DNA of 13,927 nucleotides from Candidatus Nesterenkonia stercoripullorum (lineage in GTDB: Bacteria > Actinomycetota > Actinomycetes > Actinomycetales > Micrococcaceae): assembly GCA_019114115.1 (NCBI GenBank), contig DXGD01000093.1, forward strand, positions 1 through 13,927, written 5' to 3'. Below are positions 1 to 9,079 of the stretch, piece after piece. The notes under the pieces are model-generated. The model worked only from the letters and a program-made list of their open reading frames with translations, was not told where the DNA came from and made no database searches. The position numbers and the translations under genes are program-made. Every line of letters starts with the position of its first letter. Positions within the stretch are counted from its first letter, which is position 1.

Positions 1-989
1 GCCTGCTCGCGAACATGCTGATAGGCCACCGCCACCGGGGAATCGCCTTGAAACGGAGGCCGGTTCGTGAGCAGCTCGAAGAGTACGCAGCCCGCGGAAT
101 ACAGGTCTGAGCGGTGGTCGACGACTTCGCCCCGGGCCTGCTCCGGAGAGAGGTACTGGGCGGTGCCGACGACGGCGGAGGTCTGCGTCATCGTGGAGGC
201 GGAGTCGGCCACGGCGCGGGCGATGCCGAAGTCCATGACCTTGATATTGCCCTGCTGGTCGACCATCACATTGGAGGGCTTGATATCGCGGTGGACGATC
301 CCCTTGCGGTGACTGTAGCCCAGGGCGGCGAGGATCCCGGTGAGATAGCCGGCAGCCTCACCCTCATTGAGCGGGCGGCCCAGCGCATGCTCGATCTTGT
401 CGCGCAGCGGCTGTTCTACCTCTTCAGGCTCAAGGCTCTCAGGGCCCTCGTGGACGCGTCCGGTGTCGCCGATGGCGAGGACATCCGAGTCAGTCTCGGC
501 TGAGTCGGAATTCTCGGAATCGGAAGGGCCGCTGTGCGCAGATCCCGGTGGCGGGGGCGGAACGGCTCGGGTGGCGTCGTCGTCGAAATCCGCGGACGGG
601 CCGTCCGGGTCGGTGTGCCGGGAATCAGTGTGGTCGGTCTGGCGCGGGGTTCCGTGGAGAATATGGCGCAGGGTGACGCCGTCGACGAACTCCATCACCA
701 TGTAGGGCACCTTCACCGGGTGCTGTGACGCGTCTTCAACATCTTCCTGGCCGGTGTCGTAGACCCCCACGATGTTGTGATGGTTGAGGGACGCCGAGGA
801 CTGAGCCTCACGTCGGAACCGCGTCTGGAACTGCGGGTCGCGCGCGAGGTCGGGACGAAGCATCTTGACCGCGACGCGACGATCCAGCGAGATGTCGTGG
901 CTGAGGTAGACATCGGCCATGCCTCCACGGCCGATCAGGGACTCGACGCGGTAGCGCCCGTTGAGGATACGCTCCTGGTCCTCCGTCAC
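1..989 (-). CDS. pknB: Ser/Thr protein kinase PknB, N-terminal part (cut by window edge)
   Basis: Membrane Ser/Thr kinase that controls peptidoglycan synthesis and division in actinobacteria. Only the first 329 codons are in the window, so the membrane segment and PASTA repeats expected downstream are not seen. The start is GTG at 989, overlapping the pknA stop as GTGA, with a GGAGG-type site just upstream. Visible kinase motifs are the glycine loop [10 protein letters not shown] (19-28), VAVK with Lys42, Glu61 of helix C, HRDIKPSN (Asp235), MDFGIAR (Asp253), the activation loop [20 protein letters not shown] with Thr268 and Thr270 (the positions phosphorylated in mycobacterial PknB), and [14 protein letters not shown]. 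Oddity: Lys42 to Asp235 is 193 residues against about 98 in mycobacterial PknB. The extra ~95 residues lie between VTLRHIL and [10 protein letters not shown] and are acidic and Ser/Pro-rich. The frame stays open and all catalytic residues remain, so I read it as a functional kinase with an insert. Truncation is from the window edge only. Confidence 0.95.
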
Positions 990-2983
990 AGGCCTCCACC
1001 TCCGTGGTGGATCGCGGCCCAGACGGCCCCAGACGCGATGCCGTCACCAGGGGGCTCCTCCGCGTCGGGCTCAGGCTGCGGGTCCCGCTCCGACTGTGAA
1101 GGGGGCTGCTCGGCTCCACCGGTATCCGGTGCTGAGGGCTCCTCGGGAGGGGAATTGGATTGGGTCGACTGGTCGTCACCGTTGCCGTTGCCGGCATCGT
1201 CATCCGGCGCTGGGCTGGGCGCGGAGGTCTGCTCTGGTGCCGGCGTCGTGGGGTCTTCCTCGGCAGGGGAGTCTTCAGGCGGGGCGGAGGTCTCATCCTG
1301 CGTGGGGGACGAGTCCGCGCCGTCCCCGTCGCTATCGGCATCGTCAGTCTGCGGGGAGCCTGTGCTGCCTGACCCTTCGCCGCCGGAGCCGTTCTGAGTG
1401 CTGCCGTCCTCGGGCGTCGCCTCGGCCGATTCCGCGCCGGCCGAGTAGAACAGCGTCACCGTGCTCTCCACGGGTACTTCGCCGGTCGGTGAGACGGAGG
1501 TGACGATCCCTGCCGGCTGAGCCGATTCCACCATCTCAGCCTCCGGGACGAGGTCCATCTCCTCCAGGACGCCGCTGGCTTCCTCCACGGAGAGGCCGAC
1601 GAGGTCGCCTTCGACGACGTCGACAGTATCCGACTCGGCGGTGAAGGTCTCGGTGACCGTCGGGGAGGGGTCCTCCGCCGAGCCGTTTCGGTCGGCCAGC
1701 ACCGGTAGGAGCCACGAGCCGAGGATGGCCAGCACCACCAGCGCGATGAGCGCGACCAACGGCCACCGCCATTTCGAGAAGCCCGACGTGGAGCTGTCCG
1801 ACGTGGAGGGTGTCGCCGTTTCCGCGGGAGACTTCGCGGCATTCTGCGCCCCGGCGGCCGAGGCGCCGCGTGCCAGGTCGACGTCGCCGGGCTGCAATGT
1901 CGAGGAGGGGTCCTCGGAGGACTGGTTCCCAGGGTCCTCTGCCTCGGCCTGAGCCGCCTGGTACGCGGCAGCGCGATATGCGGCGATATCCTCGGCTGGC
2001 TGTTCGGGAGTCTTGGCTGAAGGTGCTCCCCCACCGGGAGAGACCACCGACGTCGGGCTGGTGGCGGCACCGGCGGAGGTGGAGATGGCCTGGGTGGCGT
2101 CGTCGTCGGACTCCTCGGTGAGGAACTCCCGCATGGCGGGAGCAGCCTCGAGAGCGGAGTCCAGGTCATGGCGCAGGAGGGCCTCGGCGGCGTCGGCCAT
2201 CTTGGTCGCCGTGGCCGGACGGTTGCTCGGGTCCTTGGCCAGCATGCACATGATGAGGGCCCGGACTGCTTCCGGAATGCTGTCCGGCAGCGCAGGAGGC
2301 TCTTCGTTGACCTGCTTCAGCGCGATCGCGATCTGGGACTCACCGGTGAAGGGCCGCTTGCCGACGAGGGCCTCATAGCCGATGACGCCGAGGGCGTAGA
2401 TATCGGAGGAACCGGTCGCGTTCTGGCCTGTGGCCTGCTCAGGGGAGAGGTACTGCACAGTGCCCATGACCTGCCCTGTGGCAGTCAGCGGGACCTGGTC
2501 CGCGAGCCTGGCAATGCCGAAATCCGTGATCTTCACGCGCCGGGTCGGGGTGATGAGCAGGTTTCCAGGCTTCACGTCGCGGTGCACGAGCCCCTGGTCG
2601 TGGGCGACCTGCAGGGCGCGCCCGGTCTGGGCGAGGATCGAGAGGGTCTTCTCCCACGGCATGGTCTTGTCCCGCTCGAGCAGCACGGACAGCGGCTTGC
2701 CCGGCACGAGCTCCATGACGAGATAACCCGACCCGGCCTGCTCGCCGTAGTCGTAGATATCGGCGATGCCGGCGTGCTTGAGCAGGGCGGTATGCCGTGC
2801 CTCGGCGCGGAAGCGACGCAGGAACGCCTCGTCCCCGGTGTACTCCTCCTTCAGGATCTTGATCGCGACAGTGCGGCCAAGGACCTCATCGGAAGCCTTC
2901 CAGACTTCCCCCATTCCACCGATGGCGATGCGTTCGGTCAGCTTGTACCGATCGCCCATCAGAATGCCGACAGCAGGTCTCAT
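986..2983 (-). CDS. pknA: Ser/Thr protein kinase PknA-like with PASTA domain
   Basis: Second kinase of the cluster, 665 residues. The kinase domain spans about 13-275: glycine loop [10 protein letters not shown], Lys42, Glu61, HRDVKPGN (Asp136), TDFGIAR (Asp154), activation loop [18 protein letters not shown] with Thr167 and Thr169. A juxtamembrane linker (276-403) follows, then one membrane helix (about 406-430), one PASTA-like domain (454-515, starting [16 protein letters not shown]), and a low-complexity tail rich in Asp, Glu, Ser, Pro and Gly (about 517-645). Kinase is cytoplasmic, PASTA and tail outside. The start at 2983 overlaps the pbpA stop as ATGA with GGAGG almost adjacent. The N-terminus [15 protein letters not shown] aligns with mycobacterial PknA (MSPRVGVTLSGRYRL), which favours this start over Met9. 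Mycobacterial PknA is much shorter and has no PASTA domain, so the architecture is extended here. The name rests on gene order and kinase-domain likeness. Confidence 0.92.
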
Positions 2984-4428: not shown

Positions 4429-5894
4429 CGGGTGTCTCCTTCCTGTGCGGGTCGGTCGTGCTGCGTCTGGTGGTCGGATGAGGCGAGGTCGCCCGCGGCC
4501 ACCGGCTGCGGTGTCGTCTGGTCCGTCAGTGCGGCATCATCGCCGCCGATCGCATGGGTCATAGGGCCGACGACGATGGGCCGCCGGGAGGAATGCGAGA
4601 TCAGCAGGATCAGCGCGACGATCAGCCAGTTCGCCAGCAGCGCGGAGCCTCCTGCCGCCAGGAACGGCGTCGCCAGCCCGGTCAGCGGGATGACCCGCGT
4701 GATCCCTCCGACCACGACGAAGACCTGCAGCACCAGCACGACGCCGAGCCCGACTGCCAGCAGCTTGCCGAAGGCGTCCCGGGTGCCGATCCCGGCACGC
4801 ATGTACCGGCTGAACAGCAGCAGGTACAGCAGCAGCAGGGCGGAGAGGCCGATGAACCCGAGCTCCTCGCCCATTGCGGCGATGATCATGTCCGAGTTCG
4901 CCAGCGCCACCTGGTTCGGCATGCCCGATCCCAGCCCGGTGCCGGTCAGCCCGCCATGGGCGAGGCCGAAGAGCCCCTGGACCACCTGATGCGAGCCGCC
5001 TATCGGACGGTCGTAGATGTCCTGGTCGAAGGCGTTGAGCCAGATCTCCACGCGCGCTGTGACGTGCGGGACCAGGCGGTACGCCAGGAAGCCGCCGACG
5101 GCGACGAACACCGCGCCGATGGCGATCCATGACACGCGCGAGGTCGCCACGTAGATCACGGCGACGAACAGCCCGAAGAACATGAGCGCATTGCCCAGGT
5201 CGTTCTGCACCACGAGCACGCCGATCGCGACGACCCAGACGATGAACATCGGTGCCAGGTCGCGCAGGCGCGGGAAGGTCATGCGGCCGAAGCGCTTGCC
5301 GGCGAGCAGGATCAGATCGCGGTTGTTCGCCAGGAACCCGGCGAAGAAGATGGCCAGGGCGATCTTCGCCAGCTCGCCCGGCTGGAACGTCGCGAACCGC
5401 AGGTCCACCCAGATCCGCGCGCCGTGCTCCTCCATCCCCAGTCCCGGGAGGATCGGCAGGAAGAGCAGGATGATGGCCGCCACCAGCGAGATATAGGTCA
5501 GCTGACGCAGCCGGCGGTGATCCTTGAGGAACCACAGCAGGGCGGCGGCACCGGCGATGGACACGACGGTCCACATGAGCTGGCGGTCAGCGACGCCGGT
5601 GAAGGACGGGGTGAAGTCGAGACGGTGGATCATCGCGATGCCCAGCCCGTTGATGGTCACCACGATGGGGAGGATGAACGGGTCGGCGTATTTCGCGCGA
5701 AGCCGCAGCACCACGTGGAACGCCAGCGTCACGGTGGCGAACACTGCCCCTTCGACGTAGTAGGACGTGGTGACCGGCTCGTCGAGAGCGGCGGCGACCA
5801 GGAACTGGGAGCCGATCGCGATGACGAGCGCGATGAGCAGCAGCACCAGTTCCATGTTCCGGCGCGGCTTGGGGGCGGCCTGGGTCTCGGTCAC
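4425..5894 (-). CDS. rodA: SEDS-family peptidoglycan glycosyltransferase RodA/FtsW
   Basis: Polytopic inner-membrane protein of the shape, elongation, division and sporulation (SEDS) family, which polymerises lipid II into glycan strands with a class B PBP. It has 489 residues with about ten or more hydrophobic segments between residues 14 and 432. Family hallmarks are GARIWVDLRFATFQPGELAK (158-177), QNDLGNALMFF (230-240), the extracytoplasmic loop RVEIWLNAFDQD (281-292) that carries the catalytic Asp region, GTGLGSG (318-324) and MGEELGFIG (341-349). A hydrophilic C-terminal tail of ~55 residues (about 433-489) is Thr/Asp-rich and could be a kinase target; that is inference. The start is GTG at 5894, overlapping the pstP stop as GTGA, with GAAGGAG upstream. 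The position beside pbpA and between phosphatase and kinases matches the actinobacterial cluster and favours RodA over FtsW. Confidence 0.94.
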   Translation of the reverse strand: MTETQAAPKPRRNMELVLLLIALVIAIGSQFLVAAALDEPVTTSYYVEGAVFATVTLAFHVVLRLRAKYADPFILPIVVTINGLGIAMIHRLDFTPSFTGVADRQLMWTVVSIAGAAALLWFLKDHRRLRQLTYISLVAAIILLFLPILPGLGMEEHGARIWVDLRFATFQPGELAKIALAIFFAGFLANNRDLILLAGKRFGRMTFPRLRDLAPMFIVWVVAIGVLVVQNDLGNALMFFGLFVAVIYVATSRVSWIAIGAVFVAVGGFLAYRLVPHVTARVEIWLNAFDQDIYDRPIGGSHQVVQGLFGLAHGGLTGTGLGSGMPNQVALANSDMIIAAMGEELGFIGLSALLLLYLLLFSRYMRAGIGTRDAFGKLLAVGLGVVLVLQVFVVVGGITRVIPLTGLATPFLAAGGSALLANWLIVALILLISHSSRRPIVVGPMTHAIGGDDAALTDQTTPQPVAAGDLASSDHQTQHDRPAQEGDTR

Positions 5895-7744
5895 TGCTCA
5901 TCTCCTTCCGGCTCGGTCGGGCTCTGCTGGTCCTGCGCGTCGTCGTTCTGGTCGTTCGTGGGGTCGTCTGTCGGCTCGTCAGTGGCGTCGGACTCGGAAT
6001 CGGCGTTCTCGTCCTGGTCCTCTTCGTCACCGGAGTCGGAGATCGTCGAGCGCAGCTGTGCGACGATCCGCTCGGCATGGTCGCGCGAGTTCGCCGCGAT
6101 CCCGCCAGACACCCGATCTTGATGATACGGGGTCAGTTCCGAGACCTCGATCCCGGAGTGTTCGTCCACCTCGGAGAGGTGCAGGGGGCCCAGCGACTGG
6201 GAGACGCCGTTGTAGATGGCGACTTCGCCGTCGTCCTCTCCCACGTAGTACTGCGTCTGGGTCCAGATATAGCCCAGGAACATCACCACGGCGACGAGGA
6301 TGGCCAGCAGCGCGACGAAGGCCGGCAGGAACCACGTCCTGCGCCGGCGCACGGACTGCACTGTGGTGAGCTCGTCCTCATCGAGGCGATACTCACCCTC
6401 GAGGGTCTCCGCTTCGTCGTCGGCGGCGGTATCGACGACGACGGGCTGACCCTCCGCCGAGGTGTCGGACACGCTGGTGGCAGTCGCCGCGGCGGGCGCT
6501 TGATCCGCCGAGCCGACGGCAGTCCCCGAGCCCCCACCCGTTCCGGATGCTGGCGCGGCGGCCGCGGCGGATCCAGTGCTCGAGGGGACCTCAGATGTCC
6601 CGGTGCCCGATTCGTCATGGCTCTCGCCCAGCAGATCGGCATGCGAGTGACGCACCGGCCGCAGCGGCTGGCCGGTCAGCAGCACAGTCATCGGAGGTTC
6701 GTCCACGCTGCGGTCGACCACGGGGATCATGCCGGTCTTCGTGGCGTCTGAGGCGGCACCCACGAGAATATGCGGGCGGGCTTCGGCGGACTGCCCGCCC
6801 ATCGCCGCCGAGAGCGGTGACAGAGCCTCGTGATCGCGGCTGTGCCCGGTCAGCGCCTCAGTATTGACCACAGGGATCAGCTCGAGCTCTCGAGTATCGT
6901 CAGCGTCCGTTTCAGCAGCTCGCTGCGCGGCCTCACCGGAACGCGACTGATAGCCCGTGGACGCCGCCGCGACGGCCGCCTCGCTCAGCGGGAGATCCCG
7001 GTTGGGTATCAGGGCCGCCTCATCGGCTTCCACGACCTCTAGGCAGACGACGGTGACATTGTCCGGAGCCCCGCCTTCGATGGTCAGGTCCACAAGATCC
7101 GAGACGACCGACTCCAGCGGCTGGGAGGACCGCAGCTTCTGCTCGATGAGCCGTTCTGAGACGACGGCATTGAGACCGTCCGAGCACAGCAGCCAGCGCT
7201 CGCCGACTTCGAGCGGGAAGGAGGTGATGTCCAGCTCGGGGGAGGCGTCCACGTCGCCGAGAACTCTCATCAGGACGTTCTTGTGCGGGTGGTACTCCGC
7301 CTCGTCGGGCTTCAGGCGGCCTTCGTCGACGAGGCGCTGGACGAAGGTGTGGTCCTTGCTGACCTGGCGGAAGCGGCCCTTCTTCAGCCGATAGGCGCGT
7401 GAGTCGCCGATATGGGCGAACTGGAGCCGGTTGTCGGTGATGAGCAAGGAGGTGATGGTGGTGCCCATGCCCGCGAGCTTGGGGTTGGCCTGGACCAGCC
7501 GGTTGAGGAAGGCGTTCGCGGTCTGGATCTCATCGGGCAGGACCGTATCGGGCTCCGCGAAGCCGTGGGTGTCCAGATGGGCCAGGTCCAGCACAGTGGA
7601 GGCGGAGGCGACGTCGCCCCCGGCATGTCCGCCCATGCCATCGGCGACGACGGCGAAGTAGCGTCCGGCGTAGCCCGAGTCGTCGTTCTTCGACCGGACC
7701 ACGCCGGTTTCAGAACGAGCCGCGAAGCGGAAGACCAATGCCAC
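5891..7744 (-). CDS. pstP: PP2C-family Ser/Thr protein phosphatase PstP
   Basis: Metal-dependent phosphatase that removes phosphate from PknA, PknB and their substrates. It has 617 residues. The N-terminal PP2C domain (about 1-240) shows RSKNDDS (17-23), VVADGMGGHAGGD with metal ligands Asp35/Gly36, AHIGDSRAYRL (110-120), LCSDGLNAVV (Asp189) and GAPDNVTVV (Asp228). It is followed by a long Ala/Ser/Thr-rich linker (about 241-466), one membrane helix after a basic RRRRT stop (about 471-493), a small extracytoplasmic domain (about 494-566), and a very acidic tail (567-617). Mycobacterial PstP is about 514 residues, so the linker and tail are enlarged here. The start is GTG at 7744, one base after the fhaB stop, with GAGG upstream; the N-terminus begins directly with the conserved phosphatase fold. 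It overlaps rodA by 4 bp. Confidence 0.95.
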   Translation of the reverse strand: MALVFRFAARSETGVVRSKNDDSGYAGRYFAVVADGMGGHAGGDVASASTVLDLAHLDTHGFAEPDTVLPDEIQTANAFLNRLVQANPKLAGMGTTITSLLITDNRLQFAHIGDSRAYRLKKGRFRQVSKDHTFVQRLVDEGRLKPDEAEYHPHKNVLMRVLGDVDASPELDITSFPLEVGERWLLCSDGLNAVVSERLIEQKLRSSQPLESVVSDLVDLTIEGGAPDNVTVVCLEVVEADEAALIPNRDLPLSEAAVAAASTGYQSRSGEAAQRAAETDADDTRELELIPVVNTEALTGHSRDHEALSPLSAAMGGQSAEARPHILVGAASDATKTGMIPVVDRSVDEPPMTVLLTGQPLRPVRHSHADLLGESHDESGTGTSEVPSSTGSAAAAAPASGTGGGSGTAVGSADQAPAAATATSVSDTSAEGQPVVVDTAADDEAETLEGEYRLDEDELTTVQSVRRRRTWFLPAFVALLAILVAVVMFLGYIWTQTQYYVGEDDGEVAIYNGVSQSLGPLHLSEVDEHSGIEVSELTPYHQDRVSGGIAANSRDHAERIVAQLRSTISDSGDEEDQDENADSESDATDEPTDDPTNDQNDDAQDQQSPTEPEGDEQ

Positions 7745-7745
7745 G

Positions 7746-8267
7746 TCAGGTCCTCAGTTCCAGGACAGTCTTGCCGATCCGGATGCGGTCACCGGGTTCC
7801 ACTGTGGAGGCCCTGGTCAGCTGCTCGTCGCCGAGCCAGGTGCCATTCGTGGAGCCGAGATCCTCCAGGAACCAGCGGGACCCCTGCGGGAAGAACCGGG
7901 CATGCTTGCCCGAGGCATAGTCGTCTTCCAGGACGAGCGAACACTCCTGGGCGCGGCCCAGCAGGATCGGCGAGGAGGCCAGCGGGAGCTCTTTGCCTTG
8001 CAGCGGACCCTGCACCACGACCAGCTTGCTGGGGCGTGGGCGGGGCACCTGGCCCGAGCTGCGACCAGTCGAGGAGGTCGCCGGCGCCGTCTCTTCGCTG
8101 GCTCGCGGTGGCGGCGGGGCGGTCTGGCGCGTGTCCTGACGTGTTCGCCGGCGCGCCTTCTTCGACACGGCCATATCGCGGCTCTGCGCACCGATGATCG
8201 AGAGGATCAGGATCCACAGCAGCAGCAGCAGGCCGAACTGGAGGCCGGTGACGGCAAGTTCGCTCAT
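7746..8267 (-). CDS. fhaB: FHA-domain membrane protein FhaB (FipA-like)
   Basis: Small phosphothreonine-binding adaptor, 173 residues. An N-terminal membrane helix (about 7-27, rich in Leu/Ile) is followed by a basic stretch KKARRRTR (36-43), a Pro/Ser/Thr-rich linker (about 44-78), and an FHA domain (about 80-173). FHA signatures are ILLGRAQ (Arg105), ASGKHARF (Ser119 and His122), DLGSTNGTW (137-145) and a closing GDRIRIGKTVLEL. The start is ATG at 8267, 16 bases after the fhaA stop; the site upstream is only a weak GGGG. The reading frame stays open further upstream, but that part is antisense-like filler inside fhaA, and the membrane helix after Met1 fits the family. In mycobacteria the homologue (FipA) links PknA/PknB phosphorylation to FtsZ and FtsQ; here that role is inferred. 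Confidence 0.93.
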   Translation of the reverse strand: MSELAVTGLQFGLLLLLWILILSIIGAQSRDMAVSKKARRRTRQDTRQTAPPPPRASEETAPATSSTGRSSGQVPRPRPSKLVVVQGPLQGKELPLASSPILLGRAQECSLVLEDDYASGKHARFFPQGSRWFLEDLGSTNGTWLGDEQLTRASTVEPGDRIRIGKTVLELRT

Positions 8268-8283: not shown

Positions 8284-9066
8284 TTACCGATCGCGCCGGA
8301 AACGCAGTCGGGCGTTCCCGAGCGAGATGAGGGCACCGTCGTAGAGCTCCTTGCGCGTCGAGCTTCCGCTGAGCTTCTCGCCGTCGACGTAGGACCCGTT
8401 GGTGGAGTCCAGGTCCCGGGCGTAGTAGTGCGGTCCTTCGCGCAGCACCTCCAGATGGCGACGGGAGATGCCGGTGTCGGCCACAGTGACGTCCGCGCTG
8501 CTGGAACGTCCGATGACGAGACTCTCGCCGTGCAGGGGGTGGTCGACGCCCTCGTGCACGATCCGTGCAGCGGCTTGCGGGGCGCTCGGGGCCGGCACTG
8601 CGGGCTGCGCGACAGTCTGGGGGATCGGAGCCGAGGCGCTGGGCCCTGCGGCAGGCCCTGAAGCGGGCTGCGCTGGGGCCGGAGCCTTGGTGTCGACGTG
8701 ACGGTCTGTCTGCGACTCAATGCTGAGCTGACCCTGCTTGAGCTCTGTGTTCTTCACGAACGTCGCCTTGACCGGTCCGACGAGCGTATAGCCCTGGGAG
8801 TCTGCGTGACGGATGATCTCATCGCACAGCTCCTCGGCAAGGGTGACTCCGTACTTCTTCGCCTCAGCGAAGTCCTGTTCGGAGAGACGGATCTTGAAGA
8901 GATTCGGAGCCAGGCTCCGGCCCTCAGAGAGGGCGTATGCCTCCCGGTCGATGTGACGGCGTACTGCTGTGGCGATCTCCACGGGGCCGAGGCTCCCTCC
9001 GCGTCCGGAGAAGGCGCCGCGGACTATTCGCTCGATACCGCGCTCGAGTCTGTCCAGTAAGCCCAT
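8284..9066 (-). CDS. fhaA: FHA-domain protein FhaA with DUF3662 N-terminal domain
   Basis: First gene of the signalling operon, 260 residues, soluble and cytoplasmic. The N-terminal DUF3662 (FhaA-type) domain occupies about 1-120 and starts MGLLDRLERGIERIVRGAF. A Pro/Ala-rich linker (about 126-167) leads to a C-terminal FHA domain (about 168-258) with LVIGRSSSADV (Arg187), ISRRHLEV (Ser201, His204) and DLDSTNGSYVDG (218-229), the residues that bind phosphothreonine. I choose ATG at 9066 rather than GTG at 9072: AAAGGAGGT at 9071-9079 sits five bases from the ATG but would overlap the GTG. In mycobacteria FhaA binds phosphorylated MviN (MurJ) and PknB, slowing peptidoglycan synthesis. That partner is outside this window, so its use here is inferred. 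Mycobacterial FhaA is much longer because of a Gln/Gly-rich linker. Confidence 0.95.
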   Translation of the reverse strand: MGLLDRLERGIERIVRGAFSGRGGSLGPVEIATAVRRHIDREAYALSEGRSLAPNLFKIRLSEQDFAEAKKYGVTLAEELCDEIIRHADSQGYTLVGPVKATFVKNTELKQGQLSIESQTDRHVDTKAPAPAQPASGPAAGPSASAPIPQTVAQPAVPAPSAPQAAARIVHEGVDHPLHGESLVIGRSSSADVTVADTGISRRHLEVLREGPHYYARDLDSTNGSYVDGEKLSGSSTRKELYDGALISLGNARLRFRRDR

Positions 9067-9070
9067 CGGC

Positions 9071-9079
9071 ACCTCCTTT
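9071..9079 (-). promoter_or_regulatory. Shine-Dalgarno site that fixes the fhaA start
   Basis: AAAGGAGGT on the minus strand, a near-perfect anti-16S match. Its GGAGG core is five bases from the ATG at 9066. The in-frame GTG at 9072 overlaps the site itself and can therefore be discarded. Confidence 0.8.

Follow-up and report, generated by a model that had tools for sequence, protein, structure and literature searches.

Why would a PknB-type Ser/Thr kinase carry some ninety additional residues in the middle of its catalytic domain, and could such a stretch work in the way in which the insert domains of animal receptor kinases do? This question is raised by the gene at the left end of the window, by which we mean the whole 13,927-nucleotide stretch analysed here, that is, the entire contig C309 of a fragmented genome assembly that is 82% complete. 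The kinase fold is recognized in the open reading frame (Pfam Pkinase, 159.5 bits), and the best matches in the PDB are PknB structures; against NCBIfam NF033483, the product scores 379.3 bits with a cut-off of 450. This gene is cut short where the contig ends, and the insert interrupts it. The C-terminal half of the protein lies off the contig, and none was found in the genome's own assembly in a search run without a positive control in that genome. In relatives, the kinase domain is followed by a membrane helix and PASTA-like sequence, as judged by eye only.

In addition to the features collected in Table 1, the cluster encodes a penicillin-binding transpeptidase and an FtsW/RodA protein, a neighbourhood similar to that in M. 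tuberculosis, with pknA, pbpA, rodA, pstP, fhaB and fhaA. The PknA-like kinase ends in a C-terminal tail of around 150 residues rich in Asp, Glu, Ser, Pro and Gly, which extends beyond its single PASTA match (window positions 986-1440).

Table 1. Features of the kinase gene, its insert and the neighbouring genes, in window coordinates
Feature	Position	Strand	Basis
PknB-type Ser/Thr kinase, N-terminal 329 residues	3..989	(-)	translation; gene truncated at left contig end
Catalytic loop HRDIKPSN, residues 233-240	270..293	(-)	translation, alignment
91-residue insert between helices D and E, residues 113-203	381..653	(-)	alignment, predicted structure
Added helix, residues 193-202	384..413	(-)	AlphaFold2; pattern in 28/28 genus sequences
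Second candidate phospho-Thr site DTGRV, residues 175-179, Thr176	453..467	(-)	motif
Block DVLAIGD, residues 169-175	465..485	(-)	genus alignment
Run of five prolines, residues 144-148	546..560	(-)	translation
Candidate phospho-Thr site DDDATRAVP, residues 136-144, Thr140	558..584	(-)	motif
Second kinase, PknA-like, one PASTA match	986..2983	(-)	profile match
DDDATQAI (DDDATQAIS), linker after PknA kinase domain, residues 293-300	2084..2107	(-)	near-copy of insert site
PP2C-type phosphatase, PstP-like	5891..7744	(-)	profile match
FhaB, candidate phospho-site reader	7755..8264	(-)	above NCBIfam cut-off
FhaA, candidate phospho-site reader	8284..9072	(-)	FhaA_N plus FHA domain

A sequence-only reading of this DNA had noted that Lys42 and Asp235 of the kinase are 193 residues apart, against about 98 in mycobacterial PknB, with intact catalytic motifs on either side of the additional block, and both observations hold. 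The two residues align with chain residues 40 and 138 of the solved M. tuberculosis PknB (PDB 1mru, 6b2p and others), which lacks the insert and in which they are 98 apart, while the kinase core, the catalytic motifs and the activation loop TQT are common to both proteins; the alignment is interrupted after residue 114 and picks up at 212. K42, HRD235 and DFG255 are invariant columns in the PknB alignment. Given that the span from the hinge to HRDIKPxN is 146 residues here and 55 in the 27 loci fetched from the family's other genera, 91 residues are extra. The limits first proposed for the block, 372 to 656, were off by no more than a few codons, the aligned boundaries being 381 and 653.

The earlier description of the block as acidic and proline-rich also stands, as the 80 residues ahead of the added helix include 21 Asp and Glu, 4 Lys and Arg and 11 Pro, with a net charge of -17. 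Its disorder, on the other hand, was predicted for part of the block and not for all of it. In an AlphaFold2 model built with 48 sequences, residues 117-187 have a pLDDT below 50 and would form a disordered arm, whereas residues 193-202 are predicted to form an added helix (block mean 82-89), placed between a helix at 107-112, before the insert, and helix E at 209-228. In a relative with a complete kinase domain, modelled from an alignment of 45 sequences, pLDDT is below 50 over residues 116-165 and a helix is predicted at 169-178 (block mean 78 for 171-180); among the rows excluded from both alignments was L044, which has masked residues. Thus, on these models, the insert would consist of an acidic, disordered arm some 70 residues long and a short added helix, located between helices D and E, which supports the earlier reading of a disordered arm next to the active-site cleft. 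A known domain was rejected, since a Pfam scan of the insert gave no family above cut-off and its sole match was sub-threshold.

These features recur throughout the genus. PknB could be recovered in 28 of 30 genus genomes, all 28 of which have the insert: a strong match in 25 genomes gave 26 loci with hinge-to-HRDIKPxN spans of 113-153 residues, and the insert is likewise present in the weaker-matching G001 (frame broken), G002 and G015, while in G008 (65% complete) and G010 (79% complete) only paralogue-like kinases were matched. In G001 (L057/L062), the PknB reading frame breaks off close to where the insert begins, which may reflect a sequencing error or a genuine disruption. The arm ahead of the helix varies from 41 to 87 residues and is acidic in 28/28 sequences, with net charges of -6 to -19; PPPP is found in half of the inserts (14/28), and a [DN][VI]Lx[LVI] pattern, the DVLxL block, in every one (28/28), this pattern and that of the added helix both having been defined after viewing the alignment. 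Thus, the insert is real, and an assembly error is ruled out by its presence in the relatives.

Outside the genus, the picture is different. All 27 loci fetched from 16 other genera of the family, which were the best-scoring of 61 sampled family genomes (32 genera), have a hinge-to-HRD span of exactly 55 residues and no insert; for the unfetched rows, absence was judged only from two half-matches adjoining each other. In a tree of the kinase minus its variable stretches, the 14 genus sequences used (of 28, with five f7g38 loci and one f19 locus left out) form one clade with support of 1.0, nested among insert-free relatives, a pattern that fits a single gain ahead of the radiation of the genus.

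Selection on the insert is purifying, which, together with its presence in 28 genus genomes, speaks against chance and misassembly. Its dN/dS ranges from 0.06 to 0.38 in 10 pairs, compared with 0 to 0.15 for the kinase and 0.03 to 0.18 for the juxtamembrane linker, the latter measured in 8 pairs, in 6 of which the insert has the higher value. Some of the underlying dS values are above 1, the added helix alone is too short for a stable dN/dS, and the kinase value of 0.15 is inflated, as it comes from a pair (L024/L059) in which one gene is frame-broken downstream.

What the arm might do is suggested by its threonines. Among the 12 translated open reading frames of the window, a strict pattern (R2), defined after viewing the inserts of the genus and of other lineages, finds only DDDATRAV in the insert and DDDATQAI in the PknA linker, and the ten PknA linkers of the genus from which a script could extract the sequence all have a threonine site of this kind. 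A looser rule, asking for an acidic residue at -3 to -1 and a hydrophobic one at +3, was written after the genus inserts had been viewed and before those of other lineages, and is therefore a forward test on the latter only. In the motif counts, from which L057 (G001, frame broken) is excluded, 27 of 28 genus inserts satisfy it, the exception being L017; for 19 representatives, 18 pass, compared with 6.3 in shuffles (0 of 3000). As a control, the acidic C-terminal tails of PknA gave 0/10 with 1.35 expected, so that acidic disordered sequence does not automatically carry such a site here. A matrix derived from the ten PknA linker sites gave a mean of 7.6 for the 19 insert representatives and 0.5 for shuffles compared at equal lengths (0 of 1000), and 6.2 against 0.6 (0 of 1000) when the window's own linker was left out. 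The matrix score is low in the subclade L005-L015, of which L006 and L008-L015 have a poorly scoring DDExTR site with no hydrophobic residue at +3, and have DTADV/DTSDV and DTGRV-like sites that agree with the looser rule.

The published acidic/+3 preference of M. tuberculosis sites points in the same direction, with 15 of 19 representatives agreeing compared with 4.8 in shuffles (0 of 2000), although over all inserts 17/28 agree and 11/28 fail. This preference is significant for PknA-dependent and not for PknB-dependent sites (PMC7164672), and the role of the +3 position in FHA binding is itself under debate (PMC4037201). The earlier proposal that the arm could be autophosphorylated and bind FHA proteins is thus supported at the level of motifs only, namely, PknA-linker-like threonine sites in excess of those in shuffles.

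An order survey with a no-insert query covered 396 genomes from 109 genera, in 18 of which the best match was weaker than 1e-80 and in one of which there was no match at the threshold; 16 of these 19, all except G061, G086 and G126, were inspected or belong to the window's genus. For the remaining genomes, a single strong match was taken to mean that no large insert is present, with spans seen only among the matches listed, and short inserts would escape. Inserts between helices D and E were found in G239, G255 and G270 (genus g54), G224 (g41), G230 (g47) and G374 (g93, two), while G387, from the same genus as G374, matched the no-insert query strongly. Others lie in the beta4-beta5 loop (G107, G142 and G319), and inspection of G031, G084, G335, G372 and G437 gave no clear PknB with an insert. 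In a class survey of 216 genomes, the five weak ones were the window's genome, G319, G629, G640 and G643, the last three of which gave only full-length paralogue-like kinases. Hence, the insert is rare in the sampled order and class and is the ordinary state within the genus; that it might be ordinary across Micrococcales, a possibility that the sequence-only reading had raised against itself, is rejected by the family loci and the order survey.

The four other lineages with helix D-E inserts fall at separate places in the tree, which has one outgroup sequence and does not give a firm number of gains, and as many as four of the lineages sampled outside the genus may each have acquired such an insert independently. 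When the looser rule was applied to the inserts of other lineages, 6 of 10 passed compared with 1.6 in shuffles (5 of 5000); counted by lineage, 4/6 passed, g93 and g59 being the two that did not, and among lineages with inserts between helices D and E the count was 3/4. The four inserts that failed are L180, L182, L190 and L166, the last of which, in the beta4-beta5 loop of the G319 kinase, is made of GSGTHST-like repeats and has no acidic threonine site.

Several known systems offer a framework for these observations. In receptor tyrosine kinases, the kinase insert domain sits between helices D and E. That of KIT (80 residues) is described as disordered and as having phosphotyrosine sites that bind SH2 proteins (PMC8307779). 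Both inserts are found in a membrane receptor kinase (a probable one in the window) and both are disordered, that of the window by prediction, but KIT has tyrosine sites and SH2 readers, whereas the window protein is a PknB-type Ser/Thr kinase, and no member of the receptor tyrosine kinase family, with candidate threonine sites and candidate FHA readers. The resemblance, which had been called a loose analogy, is closer than that in position, disorder and candidate phospho-sites; as an analogy, it is one of design and not of homology or family membership. In bacteria, the closest parallel is the juxtamembrane domain, which in M. tuberculosis PknB recruits FhaA (PMC6180346, citing Roumestand 2011) and in StkP is phosphorylated (PMC12077195). 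The juxtamembrane linkers of PknB, StkP and PknA have acidic-Thr-x-x-hydrophobic sites, as does the insert, but they follow the kinase domain, whereas the insert is within it. In the open-access literature (subscription journals being outside the search), we found no report of a kinase insert in PknB or PASTA kinases; a paper matched there concerns eukaryotic eIF2 kinases, to go by its listing.

Given that an acidic, predicted disordered arm with linker-type threonine sites occurs beside FHA genes, the simplest account would be that the kinase has, inside its own domain, a second site for recruiting partners. On this account, the insert threonines would be phosphorylated by PknB itself when active, or by PknA acting as its partner. 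Once phosphorylated, the arm, possibly anchored on the C-lobe by the added helix, would dock FhaA or FhaB, whose genes both lie in this cluster; docking would take place next to the cleft and would supplement the recruitment site of the juxtamembrane linker. We give about an even chance to the proposal of a bacterial kinase insert domain that is autophosphorylated on threonine and docks FHA proteins, phosphorylation and binding both being inferred from sequence. A point against docking is that the juxtamembrane threonine site is retained in 23 of the 24 genus sequences in which the linker was read, so that, as far as sequence goes, the insert is not needed to supply one; the same count rejects the insert site as a relocated juxtamembrane site.

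Other explanations have to be weighed against FHA docking. The acidic arm and the added helix could instead cover the cleft, or a basic substrate surface, in cis until they are phosphorylated, with no part for FHA proteins. Such autoregulation would agree with the acidity of all 28 arms, with their start directly after the hinge and with an added-helix pattern that is found in 28/28 sequences and predicted in two models, but it leaves unexplained both the resemblance of the threonine sites to those in the PknA and PknB linkers and the presence of threonine sites in the inserts of other lineages, one of them located elsewhere in the kinase. We consider it unlikely, though far from negligible. 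A harmless, low-complexity expansion of an acidic loop with no further function would account for the variable arm length, for the faster evolution of the insert relative to the kinase and, in 6/8 pairs, to the linker, and it has a precedent in the repeat-like loop of L166, which has no threonine site. Nevertheless, dN/dS is well below 1 in 10/10 pairs, conserved blocks are found in 27-28 of 28 inserts and the insert has been kept in each of the 28 genus genomes in which PknB could be found, which makes a mere spacer improbable. A further explanation, in which the conserved DVLxL block and the helix would bind a genus-specific substrate or scaffold without phosphorylation, has the merit of explaining a pattern shared by all 28 inserts for which the phospho-site idea does not account, but no such partner is known and no DVLxL-type block was seen by eye in the printed inserts of other lineages, and its probability is low as well. 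An assembly or frameshift artefact in the window contig, as might be suspected in a fragmented, incomplete genome with the gene truncated at a contig end, can be given practically no credence and is refuted by 26 other genomes of the genus in which the insert has an open frame and the same blocks (the 27th, G001, being frame-broken), several insert-bearing relatives coming from assemblies of 1-3 contigs.

If FHA docking is extended to the other lineages, kinase insert domains would have arisen repeatedly in bacterial receptor kinases, as disordered arms that lie between helices D and E, become autophosphorylated on threonine and attract FHA proteins in the way in which the insert tyrosines of receptor tyrosine kinases attract SH2 proteins. 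One such origin would lie at the base of the genus, with independent origins in as many as four of the other lineages sampled; we advance this tentatively, at somewhat below even probability. Because the length from the hinge to the catalytic loop of PknB is almost fixed in the sampled class, an insert that is genus-wide, and that has been gained elsewhere with similar threonine sites, amounts to a natural experiment on partner recruitment by PASTA kinases in cell-wall control. If the docking model is true, bacterial Ser/Thr and animal tyrosine receptor kinases would have converged, and the insert would directly test the effect of a second FHA site inside a kinase.

Two minor observations concern the inserts of other genera. 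G374, whose assembly is reported as 4% contaminated, has two PknB genes (L182 and L190) with similar helix D-E inserts, while its congener G387 (76% complete) apparently has none. Within the window's own family, the PknB-type kinases L198 and L200 (G142 and G107, genus g3) have an insert of around 35 residues in the beta4-beta5 loop, with DPDATAPMP or DPQATAPMP.
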